Origin: Myroides odoratimimus
GTDB lineage: Bacteria; Bacteroidota; Bacteroidia; Flavobacteriales; Flavobacteriaceae
Direction of reading: 5' to 3'
Assembly: GCF_001485415.1 (NCBI RefSeq)
Contig: NZ_BCMQ01000009.1
Location: 1 to 64,000, forward strand
DNA length: 64,000 nt
Shown: piece by piece, positions 1 to 8,265 of the stretch
How the letters are laid out: each line of letters starts with the position of its first letter
Position numbering within the stretch: position 1 is the stretch's first letter
Notes under the pieces: generated by a model
Told to the model about the DNA's origin: nothing
The model's input: only the letters and a program-made list of their open reading frames with translations
Database searches by the model: none
Program-made: the position numbers and the translations under genes

Positions 1-115
1 GTTTACAGTTTACAGTTGCTCTCGACATCTATAAACAGAACGTTGACCTGTGTTCTTATTTTGATTTACGGTGAACGGTATACAGCTTACAGCAAGCGGT
101 TTACAGTTTACAGTT
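1..115 (+). repeat. Degenerate 7-bp tandem repeat arrays, left side of the four-helix-bundle gene
   Basis: Heptamers of the type TTTACAG run in phase. Two units lie at 2-15 and seven at 65-113: TTTACGG, TGAACGG, TATACAG, CTTACAG, CAAGCGG, TTTACAG, TTTACAG. The 17-mer GTTTACAGTTTACAGTT occurs identically at 1-17 and 99-115. The array may continue left of the window. An inverted array of the same heptamers lies at 662-692, on the other side of the gene at 172-552. The repeats are read directly; any role in mobility or binding is inference. Confidence 0.85.
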
Positions 116-171
116 AAATGTACCCGATAATTCTATTAATGTTCTATTTATAGAATAAACAATATTATAGT

Positions 172-552
172 TTACTTTTTACTATCCATTGTTTCTCTTA
201 TTCTTTTAATCAACACTACAAGCATCTTTTTAATACTTACAATATCATTCTGAACTGAGTAAAAATCATTCTCATTCAAGTAACCTAAGTCTTTTGATAA
301 AAATATTAAATACTCAACTTCATGTGCTGAACCTGAGGCGATATATAGATATCTAACAAGTTCTTTTTGTGTATCCTTACCACATCCTTCTGCGATATTG
401 GTAGGAATTGATACTACTGCCCTTCTTATCTGATCTATTAAATTTCTTTCCTCATACTTAGGATATAAATTTAATAATGGATAGATCTTTAATACCAATT
501 CATGGCTCAGTTTCCAAACATTATAATTTCGATAGTCTATCATATAATTCAT
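172..552 (-). CDS. Four-helix-bundle protein, 23S rRNA intervening-sequence (S23/IVP) family
   Basis: A 126-residue, mostly helical protein. It carries the family hallmark near residues 43-60, R-x-x-V-S-I-x-x-N-I-A-E-G, followed by an R-Y-L-Y-I-A-x-G-S-x-x-E segment. The family (PF05635/TIGR02436) was named for ORFs inside 23S rRNA intervening sequences. It is related to Avd, the accessory protein of diversity-generating retroelements, which binds nucleic acid as a basic ring. No rRNA gene, reverse transcriptase or variable repeat is visible here. The gene sits alone between arrays of 7-bp repeats and points the same way as hemF. I see no TAnnTTTG promoter directly upstream. The family call is firm; the function is unknown. 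Confidence 0.9.
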   Translation of the reverse strand: MNYMIDYRNYNVWKLSHELVLKIYPLLNLYPKYEERNLIDQIRRAVVSIPTNIAEGCGKDTQKELVRYLYIASGSAHEVEYLIFLSKDLGYLNENDFYSVQNDIVSIKKMLVVLIKRIRETMDSKK

Positions 553-661
553 GGTTATTTATAGTACCATAAATTGCAACAACAAACATTCCATTATACA
601 CAAAATCTAATAACTTAATAATTTGTTTATATAACTAATTATCTCTATTAAGTAGTTTTAT

Positions 662-692
662 ACTGTAAACTGTTAACCGTGAACTGTAAACT
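662..692 (-). repeat. Inverted copy of the 7-bp repeat array, overlapping the hemF stop codon
   Basis: Read on the minus strand this is four in-phase heptamers: TTTACAG, TTCACGG, TTAACAG, TTTACAG. It is inverted relative to the arrays at 1-115. Its last two bases (691-692) fall in the hemF stop codon, so the array abuts hemF with no spacer. Together with the left arrays it brackets the four-helix-bundle gene. Confidence 0.85.
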
Positions 693-1596
693 ATTTCATC
701 CAATCAACAGGATTAGCTAATACCTTCAACAGCTTTTCTTCCCAACTGTTTTCTTCTGGATGGTGGTCATATACCCATTGTACATGTGGTGGCAAACTCA
801 TTAGGATAGATTCGATACGTCCATTGGTTTTTAGGCCAAATAGAGTTCCTTTATCATGAACAAGATTAAACTCTACGTATCTACCTCTTCTGATTTCTTG
901 CCATGTACGGTGCTCATTGCTATAAGGGGTATCCATACGACGTTCTACGATAGGTGCATAAGCTTCTAAGAAGCTATCTCCTACTTCGGTTACGAAGTCA
1001 TACCACTGTTGCATAGACATTTCTTCTGTTACTTCTAAGCGGTCAAAGAATAATCCTCCGATACCACGTGCCTCTTCTCTATGTGCATTCCAAAAATATT
1101 CATCACATTGCTTTTTATACAATGGATAAAACGCTGGATTATGTTTATCACAAGCTGTCTTACATACAGTATGAAAATGCGTAGCATCCTCATCGAATAG
1201 GTAATAAGGTGTAAGGTCTTGTCCTCCACCAAACCAAGAACGCACTACTGTACCTTCTTTGTCATACATTTCAAAATAACGCCAGTTAGCATGTACTGTA
1301 GGTACCATAGGACTCTTCGGGTGAATCACTAACGATAGTCCACAAGCGAAGAAATCTACATCTCCTACATTAAAGTACTTTTGCATCGCTACTGGTAATG
1401 GTCCGTGTACGGCAGAGATATTCACTCCTCCTTTTTCGAATACTGCTCCATTCTCGATTACGCGTGTGCGACCTCCACCACCTTCAGGACGTTCCCAAAG
1501 GTCTTCTTGGAATTTTGCCTTTCCATCTATATCTTCAAGTCCTTTTGTAATGGTATCTTGAAGCTGTTGTATATATTGATAAAATTGTTCTTTCAT
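691..1596 (-). CDS. hemF: Oxygen-dependent coproporphyrinogen-III oxidase
   Basis: This enzyme converts coproporphyrinogen III to protoporphyrinogen IX using O2. The protein is 301 residues from the ATG at 1596, the usual size of the family. The open frame extends upstream to 1671 only through a TTG start, so the ATG is preferred. The characteristic segments are present: E-R-P-E-G-G-G-G-R-T-R-V, the A-x-V-H-G region, W-F-G-G-G-Q-D-L-T-P-Y-Y, and the G-R-Y-V-E-F-N-L-V-x-D-K-G-T block. It is the most distal gene of the leftward haem group, about 200 bases after the unknown gene at 1799-2158. Its stop codon is overlapped by a heptamer repeat array, and no normal terminator is visible. Confidence 0.96.
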   Translation of the reverse strand: MKEQFYQYIQQLQDTITKGLEDIDGKAKFQEDLWERPEGGGGRTRVIENGAVFEKGGVNISAVHGPLPVAMQKYFNVGDVDFFACGLSLVIHPKSPMVPTVHANWRYFEMYDKEGTVVRSWFGGGQDLTPYYLFDEDATHFHTVCKTACDKHNPAFYPLYKKQCDEYFWNAHREEARGIGGLFFDRLEVTEEMSMQQWYDFVTEVGDSFLEAYAPIVERRMDTPYSNEHRTWQEIRRGRYVEFNLVHDKGTLFGLKTNGRIESILMSLPPHVQWVYDHHPEENSWEEKLLKVLANPVDWMK

Positions 1597-1798
1597 ATTA
1601 TAAATAGTACATATCCTCTCTCTGTCAGGATACTCATCATTAAAAAAACTATTGTTCCGTAGTTCAGCCAATACATTATATTACACCTCTCTACCTTATC
1701 TTTAAATAAACAATAGTAAGCAGACTCCTCTAGTCCTACATATCACTATCATAGTGTGTATGATACCTCAACCTGTTTCTGCTGTAAATAGTGATCTC

Positions 1799-2158
1799 TT
1801 AAAGACGACTAATCTTAGTCATGATATTAAATGAGAATGCTTTACTCTCATCTTGGATATATTGATAGACAGCCTTTGCTTTTGCTTTTAATAAAGGCTC
1901 TTGAGAAGACCACTTCACTAATAGATCTGTGAACTCTTCCATCTTATCCCAAGGGAAGTTGAATTTATGTAAGTGTAAGGCTAAGTCCTTACCTTCTGTT
2001 ATCAACAGTTGTTCATAACTCAGGCCTATCTTTTGAAGCTCTACGTCTAGATCTTCTATAAATTTCTTGTCCTCTGGTGTAAATCCAATAGAAGACAACT
2101 TCTGAACAATAGACTCTATACGTCTTTCTTCTTCACTTTTTGTTCCTTTGTTTAACAT
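1799..2158 (-). CDS. Uncharacterised protein in the hem cluster
   Basis: A 119-residue protein, highly charged and predicted helical, with no signal peptide or membrane segment and no motif I recognise. It reads in the same direction as hemE and hemF and lies between them. A good hairpin terminator separates it from hemE, so it is probably transcribed separately. Its position in the haem cluster suggests, but does not show, a link to tetrapyrrole metabolism. Confidence 0.75.
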   Translation of the reverse strand: MLNKGTKSEEERRIESIVQKLSSIGFTPEDKKFIEDLDVELQKIGLSYEQLLITEGKDLALHLHKFNFPWDKMEEFTDLLVKWSSQEPLLKAKAKAVYQYIQDESKAFSFNIMTKISRL

Positions 2159-2182
2159 AGGTCAAATGATATAGTAAAACAA

Positions 2183-2213
2183 AAAAGCCTACGTCATACT
2201 TCGGCAGGCTTTT
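2183..2213 (-). terminator. Terminator after hemE
   Basis: An 8-bp stem (AAAAGCCT at 2183-2190 with AGGCTTTT at 2206-2213) is followed on the minus strand by a T run. It lies 12 bases past the hemE stop and ends the hemA-C-D-E run. Confidence 0.85.
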
Positions 2214-2224
2214 CTGTCAATATT

Positions 2225-3253
2225 TTACTTGTGTTCGTATTCTTTTACCGCTTCGATAAATGCTTTTGCATGATCTACTGGGATATGAGGTAAGATACCG
2301 TGACCTAAGTTCACTATATACTTATCTTTACCGAAAGCATCGATCATCTCGTGTACCATTTTCTTAATAGTAGGGATCGGAGACATTAGACGGCTTGGGT
2401 CAAAGTTACCTTGTAATGTGATATCTCCTCCTGTGAATAGACGAGCGTTCTGTGGGCTACAAGTCCAGTCTACTCCTAATGCAGAAGCTTTTGAATTCGC
2501 CATTTCAGGTAATGCAAACCAACATCCTTTTCCAAATACAATAACTGGAGTGATATCAGCTAATGCTTCTACTATTTGATTAATATACTGCCATGAAAAC
2601 TCTTGGTAATCTACTGGAGATAACATACCTCCCCATGAATCGAATATTTGTACTGCATTTACACCTGCTTTTACCTTTTCTTTAAGGTATAAAATAGTTG
2701 TATCTGTAATTTTTTGTAATAACGTATGCGCCGCTACTGGGTCAGAAAAACACATTCCTTTCGCTAAGTCAAAGCTCTTAGAACCTTTTCCTTCTACTGC
2801 ATAACAAAAGATAGTCCAAGGTGAACCAGCGAATCCAATCAATGGTACCTCATCGTTTAACATCTCTTTCGTTACTTTAATAGCATCCATTACATATCCT
2901 AATGTCTCTTCGATATTAGGTACGATAACTTGCTCTACATCTTTAGCAGAACGGATAGGATTAGGTACCCATGGCCCTACTCCTGGTCTCATCTCTACAT
3001 CAATGTTCATAGCTTGCGGTACGACTAAAATATCTGAGAATAAAATAGCAGCATCTGGTTTTACAATACGAATCGGTTGTACTGTAATCTCAGCTGCGAT
3101 TTCTGGCATTCTACAACGTGTAAAAAAATCATACTTATCTCTTAATTCGCGAAACTCTGGTAAGTATCTACCTGCTTGACGCATCATCCATACAGGTGGT
3201 CTCTCTACTGTTTCACCTTTTAACGCTCTTAAGAATAAATCATTTTTAATCAT
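2225..3253 (-). CDS. hemE: Uroporphyrinogen decarboxylase
   Basis: It decarboxylates the four acetate side chains of uroporphyrinogen III to give coproporphyrinogen III in the cytoplasm. The 342-residue length is normal. Signature 1, [15 protein letters not shown], lies at about residues 19-33, and the second signature appears as G-F-A-G-S-P-W-T. A late H-G-I-L-P-x-x-P-V-D-H segment is also present. It follows hemD after 37 bases in the same operon and is closed by the hairpin at 2183-2213. Confidence 0.98.
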
Positions 3254-3290
3254 TTCTATTCGATTTTAATACGTCAATTTTTAGCTGACT

Positions 3291-3956
3291 CTATTTATAA
3301 TAATCCACACAAGCTTGTAATGTAGCCTCCACTGTAGGTTGCTTCGCTATTACAATATTCTGTGTAACTCCTTTTAATGGTTCTGCTGTAGTATCTCCTA
3401 TACAGAAGCACACTTCTGTCGTGATGCTGTTCTGCTGAAGATAACTCTCTATCGCTGAAGGACTGTAAAAGCACAATCCATCTATTTTATATTCATTCTT
3501 TACTGGATTAAGTACAGTCTGATATACTGTGAACTCATTAAAGACCACACCATTTGCTCTAAAAGCATCTGGCAATAGATCTCTTCTGATACTTCCACTA
3601 AAGAATGTTATGTATCTATCTTTATAGTCCTGAACAATGATAGGAGCTAATTCTTTTGCATAATGTGCCCAAGCCTTAACTTCCCAACCGTTCTCTTCCA
3701 ACAATTCTTTTGTTTTTATCCCTACACATAGCGCTGGTTTCTTATTCAGAACTTCTCTATACCCTTGACTAATCACACTCTTCACCGCATTCTGACTTGT
3801 AAACAATACATACTCATGTACAGCATCTAAGTCGAATACCAAGTGTTCTGTCAAGATATAATCTTGTTCTACTAAATGCACCTTCCCTAAAGCAACAGTG
3901 TCTAATACACTCGCTTTAATCTTACGTGTAGATAAAATAGTTGGATTAAAAGACAT
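3291..3956 (-). CDS. hemD: Uroporphyrinogen-III synthase
   Basis: It cyclises hydroxymethylbilane with inversion of ring D. The 221-residue protein shows the weakly conserved two-lobed HemD pattern: an F-T-S-Q-N-A-V segment near residue 53 and F-Y-S-P-S-A-I-E-S-Y in the second lobe. HemD is poorly conserved, so position supports the call strongly: one base separates it from hemC and 37 bases from hemE. Translational coupling with hemC is likely. Confidence 0.93.
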   Translation of the reverse strand: MSFNPTILSTRKIKASVLDTVALGKVHLVEQDYILTEHLVFDLDAVHEYVLFTSQNAVKSVISQGYREVLNKKPALCVGIKTKELLEENGWEVKAWAHYAKELAPIIVQDYKDRYITFFSGSIRRDLLPDAFRANGVVFNEFTVYQTVLNPVKNEYKIDGLCFYSPSAIESYLQQNSITTEVCFCIGDTTAEPLKGVTQNIVIAKQPTVEATLQACVDYYK

Positions 3957-3957
3957 T

Positions 3958-4887
3958 TTATTTTTTTAATTGTTGACGTAGTGTTTCCATTAATTCACTA
4001 CCACCATTCTCAAGAATTTCTTTAGCCGCAAAGAATCCAAGTTTCTTCCACTCTGCGATATCCACTACTTTGTTCACTTCGAACTTCTGTTGACCATCTA
4101 AAGAGAATAATACCCCTTTAAAATTAATCGTGTCATCGTGATCATTATAAGTAGCTAAAGCACCGATAGGAGCTGTACACCCACCTTCTAGTGTTCTTAA
4201 GAACTGTCTTTCTATATAAGTAGTCATCTCTGTTTCATAATCATTTAACTGAGCTACTGCGTCTAAAGCATGATTATCATCTGCATTTACGACTACTACC
4301 ATAGCTCCCTGTGCAGGTGCTGGTATCATCCAGTCAAGATTAATGAAGTTCGATGGTTTCTTTTTAATACGATCTAAACCAGCTGAAGCGAAGATTGCTC
4401 CATTCCAATCGCTGTTTTGTAGTTTTTCCATACGAGTATTTACATTACCTCGTAGGTCAACTGTTGTATGCTTTGGGAAACGGTTTAACCATTGAGCTTT
4501 ACGTCTTAAACTTCCTGTAGCTACTACTGCCTCAACCTCTTCTGACATAAAAGATGTATCTCCTTTATGTAATAAGATATCTACAGTATTAGCACGTTTA
4601 AGTACTGCTCCTTGTACGATTCCTTGTGGTAGAGCTGTTGGTACATCTTTCATAGAATGTACTGCGATATCTACCTCTTTTTTAATCATTGCCACATCTA
4701 GAGTCTTAGTAAAGATTCCTGTGATTCCCATCTCATATAGTGGCTTATCTAACACTAGATCTCCTGTAGATTTAACAGGTACTAACTCTGTTTTGTACCC
4801 TAATTTCTGAAGAGATTGTTCAACTGTTTTTGCTTGCCACATTGCTAGTTCACTATCACGTGTACCTATACGAATAATTCTACCCAT
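3958..4887 (-). CDS. hemC: Hydroxymethylbilane synthase (porphobilinogen deaminase)
   Basis: It joins four porphobilinogen molecules into the linear tetrapyrrole. The protein is 309 residues. The dipyrromethane cofactor cysteine is Cys237 in the motif E-G-G-C-T-A-P-I-G-A. The N-terminal I-R-I-G-T-R-D-S-x-L-A-x-W-Q-A and central A-x-H-S-M-K-D-V-P motifs, and the G-S-L-R-R-K-A-Q and D-L-R-G-N-V-N-T-R blocks, are all present. One base separates it from both hemA and hemD, consistent with a tightly coupled operon. Confidence 0.98.
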   Translation of the reverse strand: MGRIIRIGTRDSELAMWQAKTVEQSLQKLGYKTELVPVKSTGDLVLDKPLYEMGITGIFTKTLDVAMIKKEVDIAVHSMKDVPTALPQGIVQGAVLKRANTVDILLHKGDTSFMSEEVEAVVATGSLRRKAQWLNRFPKHTTVDLRGNVNTRMEKLQNSDWNGAIFASAGLDRIKKKPSNFINLDWMIPAPAQGAMVVVVNADDNHALDAVAQLNDYETEMTTYIERQFLRTLEGGCTAPIGALATYNDHDDTINFKGVLFSLDGQQKFEVNKVVDIAEWKKLGFFAAKEILENGGSELMETLRQQLKK

Positions 4888-4888
4888 T

Positions 4889-6139
4889 TTAATTTGATTC
4901 TATATGAAACACTTTTTCTATCCATTCTATACTCTGATCCACTACTGTATCTTCATGACGAAGATGGTTTGCAAAGTGCGTAGTGATCTTCTGTATGATG
5001 CGCATACTGATTAGTTCAGCCTGCTCAGAATCAAAGTTATCATATTTCTTTTTATGATAATCTAATTCCCCATCTTTTATCTGCTCTAGCTTAGATTTAA
5101 GAGCATGTATAGTAGGTGCGAATTTTCTCATCTTCGTCCAAGCGATAAACTCAGACATGATCTCTTCTATAATTTCTTCTGCTTGTGGAATGAACTCTCT
5201 TCTTCTCTCGATCGTCTTATCTGTCATTTGAGATAAATAATCAAGGTGTATTAATTCTACTCCTTCTATCTCAGTCACATCATCACTCACGTTCTTAGGA
5301 ATAGACAAATCTAAAATAACAAGAGGTTTTGTCAAGTTAAGCAACGCCTTATCTACTGTAGGTTTCTGCGCACCAGTCGCTACGATAAGCACATCTGATT
5401 TGCGTATTTCTGCTTGTAAATCTGCATAATCCTTTACGATAAGGTTAAACTTACCTGCTACTTCTAATGCTTTCTCTTTTGTTCTATTAATAAGTGTGAT
5501 ATGATCATTCTTAGTATGCTTCACTAAGTTTTCGCATGTATTTCTACCGATTTTACCTGTTCCGAATAACAAGATATTCTTATTAGAGATATCTTCTACA
5601 TGGTCCATAATATATTGTACAGAAGCAAATGACACAGAAGTAGCTCCAGAACTAAGCTCAGTCTCATTCTTGATACGTTTACTTGCTTGGATAACTGCAT
5701 TGACTAATCTCTCGAAGTAATTTGTTGTCAATTCTTTCTCCTTCGCTAAGTAGAAAGCATTCTTAATCTGACTGATAATTTCAAAATCACCTAATATCTG
5801 ACTATCTAGTCCTGTTCCAACACGGAATAAGTGTTCTATCGCCTCCTTAGTCTTATATACATAAGCCACGTTGCGGAAGTCATCCACTGTACCATTACTG
5901 TTATCACATAATAATTTAATCAGTTCGAAAGGGTGTTGTGCGAAACCAAATATCTCCGTTCTATTACATGTAGAAATCACGATTAAACTCTCGATTCCTT
6001 CATTTTTAGCTTGAGTTAATAAATTGTCTTTGGCCTCATCACTTAGACTAAACTTACCGCGCATTTCAGCGTCCGCTTTCTTATAACTTAATCCCACTGC
6101 ATAAAAAGTCGCAGGTTTAGTCTTATCTATTTTGTCCAT
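4889..6139 (-). CDS. hemA: Glutamyl-tRNA reductase
   Basis: This is the first committed step of C5-pathway haem synthesis: NADPH reduction of Glu-tRNA to glutamate-1-semialdehyde. The 416-residue protein has the catalytic Cys58 in V-I-S-T-C-N-R-T-E-I and a nucleotide-binding L-F-G-T-G-K-I-G-R in the middle domain. A helical dimerisation domain follows. It is the first gene of the leftward hemA-hemC-hemD-hemE operon. A promoter-like element lies about 28 bases upstream, and an AraC-type regulator is transcribed divergently. Confidence 0.97.
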   Translation of the reverse strand: MDKIDKTKPATFYAVGLSYKKADAEMRGKFSLSDEAKDNLLTQAKNEGIESLIVISTCNRTEIFGFAQHPFELIKLLCDNSNGTVDDFRNVAYVYKTKEAIEHLFRVGTGLDSQILGDFEIISQIKNAFYLAKEKELTTNYFERLVNAVIQASKRIKNETELSSGATSVSFASVQYIMDHVEDISNKNILLFGTGKIGRNTCENLVKHTKNDHITLINRTKEKALEVAGKFNLIVKDYADLQAEIRKSDVLIVATGAQKPTVDKALLNLTKPLVILDLSIPKNVSDDVTEIEGVELIHLDYLSQMTDKTIERRREFIPQAEEIIEEIMSEFIAWTKMRKFAPTIHALKSKLEQIKDGELDYHKKKYDNFDSEQAELISMRIIQKITTHFANHLRHEDTVVDQSIEWIEKVFHIESN

Positions 6140-6166
6140 ACCACAGAGTTAATTCAAAAAAGTAAA

Positions 6167-6193
6167 CAAATTTAAGATTAAAGAATCGACAAA
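6167..6193 (-). promoter_or_regulatory. Probable hemA operon promoter
   Basis: On the minus strand, TAAATTTG (6167-6174) matches the flavobacterial -7 consensus TAnnTTTG. A TTTG lies at 6190-6193 with a 15-base spacer, slightly shorter than the usual 17-23. The implied leader to hemA is about 20-25 bases. Confidence 0.5.
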
Positions 6194-6245
6194 AGTAACG
6201 CTAGAAGGACTATTTATATCGCTAAGGGATTTCTGAAAAAAAAAG

Positions 6246-6290
6246 CCTTGCATTTCATTATAATACAGTACATTTGCAACAATAGCAAGG
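6246..6290 (+). promoter_or_regulatory. Promoter of the araC-hemH-hemJ run, with an overlapping inverted repeat
   Basis: TTG at 6248-6250, an 18-base spacer, and TACATTTG at 6269-6276 fit the Bacteroidetes housekeeping promoter exactly. The inverted repeat CCTTGC (6246-6251) / GCAAGG (6285-6290) covers the -33 box and a site just past the predicted start of transcription. That position suits an operator, possibly for the neighbouring AraC protein; this is inference. The leader before the regulator gene would be about 90 bases. Confidence 0.65.
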
Positions 6291-6371
6291 GTTAAAAGAC
6301 ACCCTATATAGAATCATTCTAAATAAAAAATAACTAGATAAGTTTCTAACTTAAGTTTAAAAAGTATCGCT

Positions 6372-7244
6372 ATGAGTCCTACGGAAGAAATAATAATTGA
6401 TGATAATTTTTCGATATTAAGATTCGAAAACAACTTGACAGAGAACATAACATTTCAACGAGAAATGGGAACAGATGTTATCCAATTTTACTTTGGTTTA
6501 AAAGGGTCTGCCAAATTTGTATTCAATCAAGGAGCCTATTCTCTTCCTCTTAATGAAGAAAAGTTCTTGATCTTATACAACCCACAAAAACAGCTTCCTG
6601 TACACTTAGAGATATCCCCTAATACATGGGTCATAAGTGTTTTAATTTCTATCAAGAAGTTCCATGCTCTATTTTCAACAGAAGCAGAGTTCATCGGTTT
6701 TTTAACTGGTGAAAACAGAGACAAGAAGTATTACTCTGAAGAAGGAATTACTCCTTCTATGGCTATAGTCCTAAATCAGTTGTTTAACTTCTATATGAAT
6801 CCAACTATCAAAAAGCTATACTACACTGGTAAGACATACGAGTTACTTAGTTTACTATTTAATCAGAATGAAGATCAAAACATAGAGAATTGCCCATTCT
6901 TATCTGATGAAGACGATGTCGTTAAAATCAAAAAAGCGAAAGATATCATCATCAGTAAAATGGCTGAACCACCTACTCTTCAAGAGTTAGCAGACTCAGT
7001 AGGTATTAACATTAAAAAACTAAAAATGGGCTTTAAGCAGATTTACGGTGACTCTGTATTCAGCTTCTTGTTTGATTATAAGATGGAATACGCACGCAAG
7101 CTCTTAGACAACGGTAGTTATAATGTAAACGAAGTAGGACTAAAGATCGGTTATAGTTCTGCTAGTCATTTCATTGCTGCCTTTAAAAAGAAGTTTGGCA
7201 CTACACCGAAAAAATACTTAATGTCTCTCAACACAAATAATTAA
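6372..7244 (+). CDS. AraC-family transcriptional regulator of the haem cluster
   Basis: A 290-residue protein. The last 100 residues or so hold the two helix-turn-helix units of AraC/XylS regulators: P-P-T-L-Q-E-L-A-D-S-V-G-I and the F-K-K-K-F-G-T-T-P-K-K-Y-L ending, with G-Y-S-S-A-S-H-F before it. The N-terminal 180 residues resemble an effector or dimerisation domain that I cannot assign. It sits between divergent hem operons and only 4 bases before hemH. A role in controlling haem synthesis is therefore likely; the signal sensed is unknown. Confidence 0.9.
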   Translation: MSPTEEIIIDDNFSILRFENNLTENITFQREMGTDVIQFYFGLKGSAKFVFNQGAYSLPLNEEKFLILYNPQKQLPVHLEISPNTWVISVLISIKKFHALFSTEAEFIGFLTGENRDKKYYSEEGITPSMAIVLNQLFNFYMNPTIKKLYYTGKTYELLSLLFNQNEDQNIENCPFLSDEDDVVKIKKAKDIIISKMAEPPTLQELADSVGINIKKLKMGFKQIYGDSVFSFLFDYKMEYARKLLDNGSYNVNEVGLKIGYSSASHFIAAFKKKFGTTPKKYLMSLNTNN

Positions 7245-7248
7245 CAAC

Positions 7249-8265
7249 ATGCAAGGTATATTATTAGTTAACCTAGGCTCACCTAAAAGCCCTACAGCAA
7301 AAGACGTAAAACCATACTTAGGAGAATTCTTAATGGATGAAAGAGTAATAGACATGCCATACATCCTAAGAAGTTTATTAGTTAAAGGAATCATACTGAA
7401 TACTAGACCAAAGAAATCAGCAGAAGCTTATTCTAAAATATGGTGGAAAGAAGGTTCACCACTAATCGTAATTTCTGAAAGACAACAAAAGAAAGTACAA
7501 GCAAAAGTGGACATACCAGTAGCATTAGCTATGAGATATGGAGAACCCTCTATCCAAACAGGTTTACAAGAATTAAAAGACAAAGGTATAGATGATGTAC
7601 TAATGATCCCTCTTTACCCTCAGTTTGCCATGGCAACTACAGAGACTATTAATGTATTAGCAGAAGAAGTAAGACAGAAATACTTTCCTCAAATGAAAGT
7701 TACGAGCTTCCCAGCTTTCTACAACAAGAAAGAATATGTAGATGCTCTAGCTCATACTATACAAGGTCATCTAGAAGGGTATGACTATGACCATATCGTA
7801 TTCTCTTATCATGGGGTACCTGAAAGACATATCCGCAAATCAGATGTAACGAAGGGACACTGTACTATAGACGGCTCTTGCTGTCAAACAGCTTCTAAAG
7901 CACATGAGTTCTGCTATAGACACCAATGTTTAGAAACAACAAGACAAGTAGTAGAGAAATTAAACATCCCTGCTGATAAATACACTAACTCATTCCAATC
8001 TAGATTAGGAATGGACAAATGGCTACAACCTCCAACTGATGCTACTGTAAATGGATTAGCTGAGAAAGGCATTAAAAAGCTAGCAGTAGTTACTCCTGCC
8101 TTTGTAGCCGACTGTCTTGAAACACTAGAAGAAATAGGCATGGAAGCACATGACGAATTCTTAAAACACGGAGGAGAAGAGTTTAGAACAATCCCTTGTA
8201 TGAATGATGATGACATGTGGATAGATGCAATGGTTACTTGGATTAAAGAATGGCAAAACAAATAA
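7249..8265 (+). CDS. hemH: Ferrochelatase
   Basis: It inserts Fe2+ into the porphyrin ring, the last step of haem synthesis. The protein is 338 residues. The signature S-Y-H-G-V-P lies at 186-191 with its conserved His, and a P-A-F-V-A-D-C-L-E-T-L-E-E block lies near the C-terminus. Five cysteines cluster just after the signature (Cys205, 211, 212, 222, 227). This recalls the internal cysteine motifs of bacterial ferrochelatases that carry an iron-sulfur cluster, but a cluster here is not proven. It is 4 bases after the AraC gene and 4 bases before hemJ. Confidence 0.97.
   Translation: MQGILLVNLGSPKSPTAKDVKPYLGEFLMDERVIDMPYILRSLLVKGIILNTRPKKSAEAYSKIWWKEGSPLIVISERQQKKVQAKVDIPVALAMRYGEPSIQTGLQELKDKGIDDVLMIPLYPQFAMATTETINVLAEEVRQKYFPQMKVTSFPAFYNKKEYVDALAHTIQGHLEGYDYDHIVFSYHGVPERHIRKSDVTKGHCTIDGSCCQTASKAHEFCYRHQCLETTRQVVEKLNIPADKYTNSFQSRLGMDKWLQPPTDATVNGLAEKGIKKLAVVTPAFVADCLETLEEIGMEAHDEFLKHGGEEFRTIPCMNDDDMWIDAMVTWIKEWQNK

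Follow-up and report, generated by a model that had tools for sequence, protein, structure and literature searches.

We wanted to know why a small gene of the 23S rRNA intervening sequence (IVS) family lies between opposed arrays of 7-nt repeats in the haem genes of Myroides odoratimimus, at the start of contig NZ_BCMQ01000009.1. The whole stretch analysed, referred to as the window, comprises positions 1 to 64,000 of this contig. In our reading, to which we give a probability of roughly 0.55, the region is one copy of an 'operon IVS', an element built like the 23S rRNA IVSs and lodged between two cistrons, whose arms would pair and whose protein would bind the repeats. Its anatomy is plain: an open reading frame (ORF) of the PF05635 family lies between two inverted arms made of some four to five tandem units of 7 nt or, at many Bacteroidota loci, 8 nt. 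We observed the same anatomy at many other loci, together with co-variation of the two arms, agreement between motif and protein, and presence or absence of the element at one and the same site.

The gene (172 to 552, minus strand, 126 aa) was assigned from its ORF and profile scores to the four-helix-bundle family PF05635/TIGR02436 (S23p, 23S IVP family). It scored 119.8 bits against PF05635 (cut-off 33.8, Pfam profile search) and 117.6 bits against TIGR02436 (cut-off 24), and PF05635 was the sole Pfam domain detected in the protein. Avd of diversity-generating retroelements belongs to a related family (PMC10053308). The Avd model gave only 21.3 bits on the window protein, below its cut-off of 80, and the neighbours here are hemF and hemB; no search for a reverse transcriptase was made. 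A search of phage records gave no match.

In the sense of the gene, the 5' arm reads GTTTACAGTTCACGGTTAACAGTTTACAGTA (661 to 691, minus strand) and directly abuts hemF, its first G being the final base of the stop codon TAG. The 3' arm (65 to 115, plus strand) is inverted with respect to it and holds seven in-phase heptamers at 65-113, read directly as TTTACGG, TGAACGG, TATACAG, CTTACAG, CAAGCGG, TTTACAG and TTTACAG. Heptamers of the opposite orientation occupy 663-690 within the 5' arm, and a further heptamer run, GTTTACAGTTTACAGTT, lies at 1-17. The inverted pair 84-114/662-692 spans 31 nt with a complementarity of 81%, and 86% of the 5' arm is paired with the 3' arm in the minimum free energy (MFE) fold of this locus (L002). 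An earlier note on this DNA had described heptamers at 2-15 and 65-113 facing opposed ones at 663-690 around a single gene of the 23S-IVS/Avd-related family, the right array running into the hemF stop without a spacer. Direct reading, the profile scores and the shared G of the stop codon agree with each of these statements.

A period-7 detector at threshold 10 found three runs in 64 kb, all of them here (1-17, 99-115 and 659-692), and at threshold 14 it found no run in the window. A loose 14-mer scan of the whole window (up to 3 mismatches) gave 19 matches with 14.1 expected, which is not significant; every match with 0 or 1 mismatch fell in the region of the element.

Do other genes of this family carry such arms? 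We gathered 4 loci from the own genome, 90 from the genus (61 genomes) and 29 from the phylum (198 genomes; 4 of the 29 came again from the genus). Two loci without a clean ORF and two with short flanks were left out, which gave 119 Bacteroidota loci. For each locus 250 bp on either side of the gene were compared, and a locus passed when the score was above 13, which exceeds the 99th percentile of base-shuffled flanks. An inverted match was found at 76 of the 119 loci (own genome 1/4, genus 62/86, phylum 13/29). Counted by site, 32 of 47 had at least one positive locus, and 98 of 119 loci showed either an inverted match or a 7/8-periodic run. The controls passed rarely: 12/355 size-matched genes and 49/1492 genes of all sizes (five genomes in each case), 32/1184 mismatched flank pairs, 0/49 genes of the window and 1/30 hemF genes. 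The difference between PF05635 and size-matched genes was large (Fisher p ~1e-43, with loci taken as independent).

The arms are not confined to Bacteroidota chromosomes. For plasmids we read one place per matching record, 20 of 22 places (18 cyanobacterial, one Gemmatimonadota, one Azospirillum), and found inverted arms at 13 of these 20 loci, among which L246/L247 and L241/L248 are near-duplicates. Five of the seven failing plasmid loci (three of them near-duplicates) have AGTCAG-type heptamers by eye; L237 has a short GTTAGCT array far upstream, and L253 has arrays which are not inverted. In 30 viral contigs there were 27 loci with different ORFs, some closely related and some with short frames, and 20 of the 27 had inverted arms. 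The Azospirillum copy, which has heptamer arms, is located within a 23S rRNA gene (Rfam LSU_rRNA_bacteria, 2134 bits); the operon form is therefore built in the same way as the classical IVS. Heptamer arms were also present in cyanobacterial CRISPR-cas copies, namely L236, L240 (cas6 - gene - cas4) and L254 (cas10 - gene - cmr3). Since these three cas-operon copies carry heptamer arms, they look like passengers. In cas loci, 18 PF05635 genes are listed by PMC3936711, which counts them as an associated function.

We analyzed the anatomy of the arms on passing loci only: 76 from Bacteroidota, 12 from plasmids (L247 was dropped as a duplicate) and 20 from viral contigs. The best lag of the 5' arm was 7 or 8 in 68/76 Bacteroidota loci (39 at 7, 29 at 8) and in all plasmid (12/12) and viral (20/20) loci. 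Median arm length was 31 nt, 35 nt and 27 nt, respectively. The 5' arm contained more G than C in 62 Bacteroidota loci and fewer in 5 (9 ties), with 12 vs 0 for plasmids and 17 vs 2 (1 tie) for viral loci. The motif itself differs from locus to locus; six loci of genome G055 show different motifs by eye. What holds generally is a repeat of 7 or 8 nt specific to each locus, GTTTACAG being one among many motifs. The pattern TTnACrG, for which the earlier note had proposed a scan, is not as such the repeat of the family.

The two arms of a locus resemble each other. At 19 shared sites, the arms within a locus matched each other better than the mean of same-site loci elsewhere in 68 of 91 cases (p = 4.7e-9), and arm similarity followed protein identity (Spearman 0.68, 340 pairs). 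At unrelated sites, the motif was shared by 13 of the 17 pairs whose proteins were at least 70% identical, and by about 2% of the pairs below 50%. L127 and L109 are elements at other sites whose arms are of the type found in their protein group. In G040, L059 and L088 encode 97% identical proteins 2.8 kb apart, and both have TGTATAC-type arms.

How could such an element live in an operon? The gene was co-directional with both neighbours at 105 of 115 callable loci (6/121 were not callable), with a background of 453/837 in three sampled genomes (p ~5e-18). In MFE folds of 70 preselected loci, calculated without a shuffled baseline, more than half of the 5' arm was paired with the 3' arm at 48. 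We propose that in the polycistronic mRNA the arms would form a stem by base pairing and so close off the ORF. On the model of the 23S IVSs, RNase III may then cut this stem, releasing the messages upstream and downstream of the element. The protein, as a pentamer, would bind its own 7-nt repeats, which would explain why motif and protein go together, and this binding might help the element to copy or protect itself. The co-variation of motif and protein lends indirect support to such recognition. One may speculate that five repeat units serve one ring of five chains.

The Coxiella IVS is reported to have a 28-bp terminal stem in which RNase III cuts, and GACAGAT heptamers in tandem (PMC4990558). 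As in our locus, a PF05635 ORF there occupies the loop of a stem of terminal inverted repeats, and the heptamers lie in the stem. The present case differs in its location between hemF and hemB, in a motif that varies between loci, and in the common occurrence of gene-less arrays. The closest known layout is that of the 23S rRNA IVS rather than that of repetitive extragenic palindromic (REP) sequences and their RAYT genes.

RAYT is a Y1 (HuH) REP-associated transposase. The earlier note had likened the locus to REP/RAYT pairs, and the likeness to these and to REPIN systems lies in a single gene bracketed by inverted short repeats and in many orphan repeats; the difference is that the present element has no transposase domain and has tandem heptamer arrays of variable sequence. 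The parallel thus stands for the layout and the orphan copies and fails for the protein, which holds PF05635 only. A selfish element at the DNA level, of the REP or miniature inverted-repeat transposable element (MITE) kind, would have the arms as terminal inverted repeats, a gene that mobilises them and gene-less arrays as non-autonomous copies. It would account for inverted arms accompanied by many orphan arrays, for the same protein type with the same arms at unrelated sites, and for the G040 pair. We regard it as quite unlikely, as no Pfam domain other than PF05635 is present, one copy lies inside 23S rRNA, and co-directional insertion together with the polarity of the arms points to RNA.

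A regulatory explanation, also acting on RNA, starts from the shape of the protein. On this view the protein would be a TRAP-like ring that binds the heptamers of its own leader, and likewise those of gene-less arrays close to the start and stop codons of other genes, and thereby sets the translation or stability of these messages; the arms would serve as binding sites, the stem being secondary. The solved relatives of the window protein in the PDB, 2gsc and 2rld, have five chains each, and a Xanthomonas protein of the family is called a homopentamer (PMC4990558). Median arms of 31 and 35 nt would hold about five heptamers (viral arms are shorter, at 27 nt), the 5' arm mostly has more G than C, and in the own genome many gene-less arrays are found some 15 bp or less from the end of an ORF. 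TAACTGA heptamers have been proposed to act post-transcriptionally (MacGregor 2015, PMC4679880). However, a stem whose 5' strand is rich in G would be expected to show the same polarity, and AG was the top dinucleotide at 7/8 spacing in only 28/76 Bacteroidota, 2/12 plasmid and 4/20 viral arms. Paralogues within one genome differ in motif, so that one protein could serve few targets. This explanation seems to us possible but unlikely.

Is the element mobile or simply inherited? The hemF-hemB site is informative. In a survey of 30 hemF loci, hemB follows in 21 by pattern, and additionally in L178 on reading. The junction is empty (11 bp) in L179, so that relatives include the empty site 3' of hemF for which the earlier note had proposed a comparison. 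Gene-less inverted arrays are seen by eye in L187, L195, L199, L201 and L202. A gene with GTTTACAG arms is present in the own genome, L184 and L178; L194 and L197 also have the gene, but its arms there are different, and others have another stretch or gene. L177, the closest by HemF (97%), has at this place no PF05635 gene but a different hairpin-like insert of 138 bp. At the same site in Myroides pelagicus we found no intact ORF of at least 90 aa for the window protein. From this variety, the site shows repeated gain and loss. The suggestion of a small mobile module is supported by the wide distribution, the copies at unrelated sites, this presence and absence and the many gene-less arrays of the genome; many shared sites are consistent with vertical descent. 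Equally, the alternative raised with it, a constant site kept by vertical descent, applies to many loci (19 site groups) but not throughout. A history of rare transfer and mostly vertical descent fits best.

Another shared site holds PF05635 genes in L072, L085, L099, L116 and L121, and looks like groES-groEL from gene names given by eye. Arrays were seen by eye in L072, L085 and L099, and only L116 of the five passes the threshold.

The downstream side of the window locus required attention to the assembly. Upstream, hemF (691 to 1608, minus strand) is the host cistron and lies outside the element; the downstream cistron, hemB, lies beyond the window on contig C5. The first 10,240 bp of the window contig (C9:1-10240) are identical to the reverse strand of C5, so one locus is present twice in the assembly; a window position equals 10241 minus the position in L036, the C5 copy. 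We considered C5 and C9 as two copies of the element and ruled this out, as the two contig ends overlap exactly over 10,240 bp or more; the five PF05635 matches in the own genome therefore represent four genes. Along C5, hemF is followed by the 5' arm, the gene, the 3' arm, a 77-bp unit in 4.4 copies, and hemB. The unit is 11 x 7 bp long with about four heptamers per copy. C9 begins inside this tandem array, which is cut by the contig end: about 1.2 of the 4.4 copies are in the window (1 to 92, plus strand) and the rest are on C5 up to hemB. In L178 of G058 a different amplification was seen at 2413-3247, thirteen copies of a 64-bp unit with GTTTACAG heptamers, located 5' of the gene.

Arrays are not restricted to the gene. 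In the own genome a 17-mer pattern with up to 3 mismatches gave 121 matches and the reversed control pattern 22. Among 20 regions chosen for PF05635 or pattern matches, more than 12 sites had GTTTACAG-type arrays without the gene, mostly intergenic and often no more than 15 bp from an ORF end (ORFs were called mechanically). The association between arrays and gene that the earlier note had proposed to test therefore has two sides: of the GTTTACAG array sites that we read in the own genome, almost all lack a PF05635 gene next to them, yet 76 of 119 loci with the gene are armed.

We also compared arrays in 400-kb samples of a few genomes. At threshold 14, period-7 arrays numbered 4, 7 and 3 in genomes with PF05635, the last of which has just one such gene, and 0 and 0 in gene-free genomes, one of which has 63% GC. 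At threshold 10 the contrast was weaker (7, 15 and 12 vs 3 and 1), and periods 6, 9 and 12 were common as well. That array density tracks PF05635 presence is suggestive only. A motif screen of the samples recognised no PF05635 gene, and hence the 14 sampled arrays appear gene-less.

To see whether orphan GTTTACAG arrays go with the cognate protein, we scanned 61 genomes with up to 2 mismatches; G000, G058 and G020 among them look like close relatives. Fewer than 15 matches were found in 48 of the 61. Genomes with a GTTTACAG-armed gene had 175 (G058), 52 (G000) and 19 (G038) matches. Other high scorers were G016 with 59 (control 40), G033 with 43, G042 with 34 and G007 with 29, where the listed matches were mostly GTTTAAAG, followed by G020 with 28 (the closest by HemF, without a gene of the own type), G056 with 26 and G051 with 23, and by G036 and G052 with 21 each and G047 with 20.

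Such arrays could also be passive, that is, slippage products forming hairpins at junctions, where the gene inserts or survives without functional contact. The gene-less inverted arrays at five hemF-hemB junctions, the period-7 runs away from the gene and the tandem amplifications that arose independently (77-bp units here, thirteen 64-bp units in L178) would agree with this. It leaves unexplained the agreement of motif and protein lineage at unrelated sites, the match of the arms within a locus, and the absence of arrays at threshold 14 from the 400 kb sampled in each of two gene-free genomes, with 4, 7 and 3 in the others, a small sampling. We think this explanation very unlikely.

Several observations weigh against the operon IVS. 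At 43 of the 119 Bacteroidota loci the inverted-arm threshold was not reached, with a 7/8-periodic flank run still present in 22 of these 43, and the loci were mostly the best-scoring among the matches listed, orthologues included. Of the four PF05635 genes in the own genome only that of the window passes; L004, read by eye, is flanked on either side by long 8-nt arrays, L005 shows a small number of AATTACG units at one flank, and reading the flanks of L001 revealed no clear array. The flanks matched in direct orientation at 20 of 119 loci. In the GIY-YIG comparison family (30 loci, of which one was dropped for a 701-aa frame) 22/29 passed in inverted and 22/29 in direct orientation; a high inverted score is therefore not unique to PF05635. 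The within-locus arm match beat every other same-site locus in only 33 of 91 cases, and motif and protein correlated weakly at sites with no common neighbour (Spearman 0.11, 6542 pairs), where 16 of the 17 close unrelated-site pairs involve L127 or L109. No more than half of the 5' arm was paired with the 3' arm at 22 of the 70 folded loci. In the material sampled, gene-less arrays outnumber gene-bearing ones, and thus the protein may be dispensable. Finally, the window locus has no rRNA context: an Rfam scan of window positions 1-8000 gave no match at gathering scores, and the locus is hemF-hemB and not a 23S rRNA helix. As the element is not in rRNA, it is IVS-like and not a 23S IVS.

The GIY-YIG family was rejected as a neutral control because it has long direct and inverted repeats of its own, and size-matched genes were used instead. 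Eight of its 30 loci were read, and mostly they lie within such repeats; at L207, L216, L218, L229 and G022:C1:181321-182930, in the same genus, GIY-YIG genes stand in long repeats of this kind, some of them as tandem gene arrays with a period of 350 bp. The 7/8 period and the low direct count (20/119) set PF05635 apart from this family.

Heptameric intergenic repeats are known from cyanobacteria as short tandemly repeated repetitive (STRR) sequences. PMC4679880 describes heptamer repeats from Cyanobacteria, Beggiatoaceae and Bacteroidetes, and PMC4692102 GGGAATC heptamers from Xanthomonas and repeats from Nostoc, two Xanthomonas genomes having 70 and 75 convergent pairs. The arrays analyzed here resemble STRR, GGGAATC and TAACTGA repeats in their 7-nt tandem units, their intergenic position and their frequent closeness to start or stop codons, and differ in being tied to a gene family. 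The term 'S23' is absent from the parts of PMC4679880 and PMC4692102 available to us. A literature search covering few subscription journals returned no paper joining heptamer repeats to PF05635 beyond the Coxiella IVS. It returned no function for PF05635 proteins either, though their structures have been solved.

Taken jointly, these results lead us to a wider proposal, which we make tentatively and at somewhat less than even odds. PF05635 rings may be the partners of heptamers in Bacteroidota, Cyanobacteria and others, each with its own motif, and gene plus arms may form a widespread minimal element at the RNA level. The 23S IVS would then be a special case, gene-less arrays would be non-autonomous, and the copies in cas, haem and probably groES-groEL operons would be passengers.

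In summary, no partner was known for the heptamer repeats described from several phyla (PMC4679880, PMC4692102), and the link to PF05635 supplies a candidate. Through this link both subjects become testable, as each locus points to one protein and to the site which that protein may bind. If the reading is true, PF05635 genes in cas loci would be re-read as passengers, and the element would offer a simple model of how very small elements can persist between the genes of an operon while leaving it intact.
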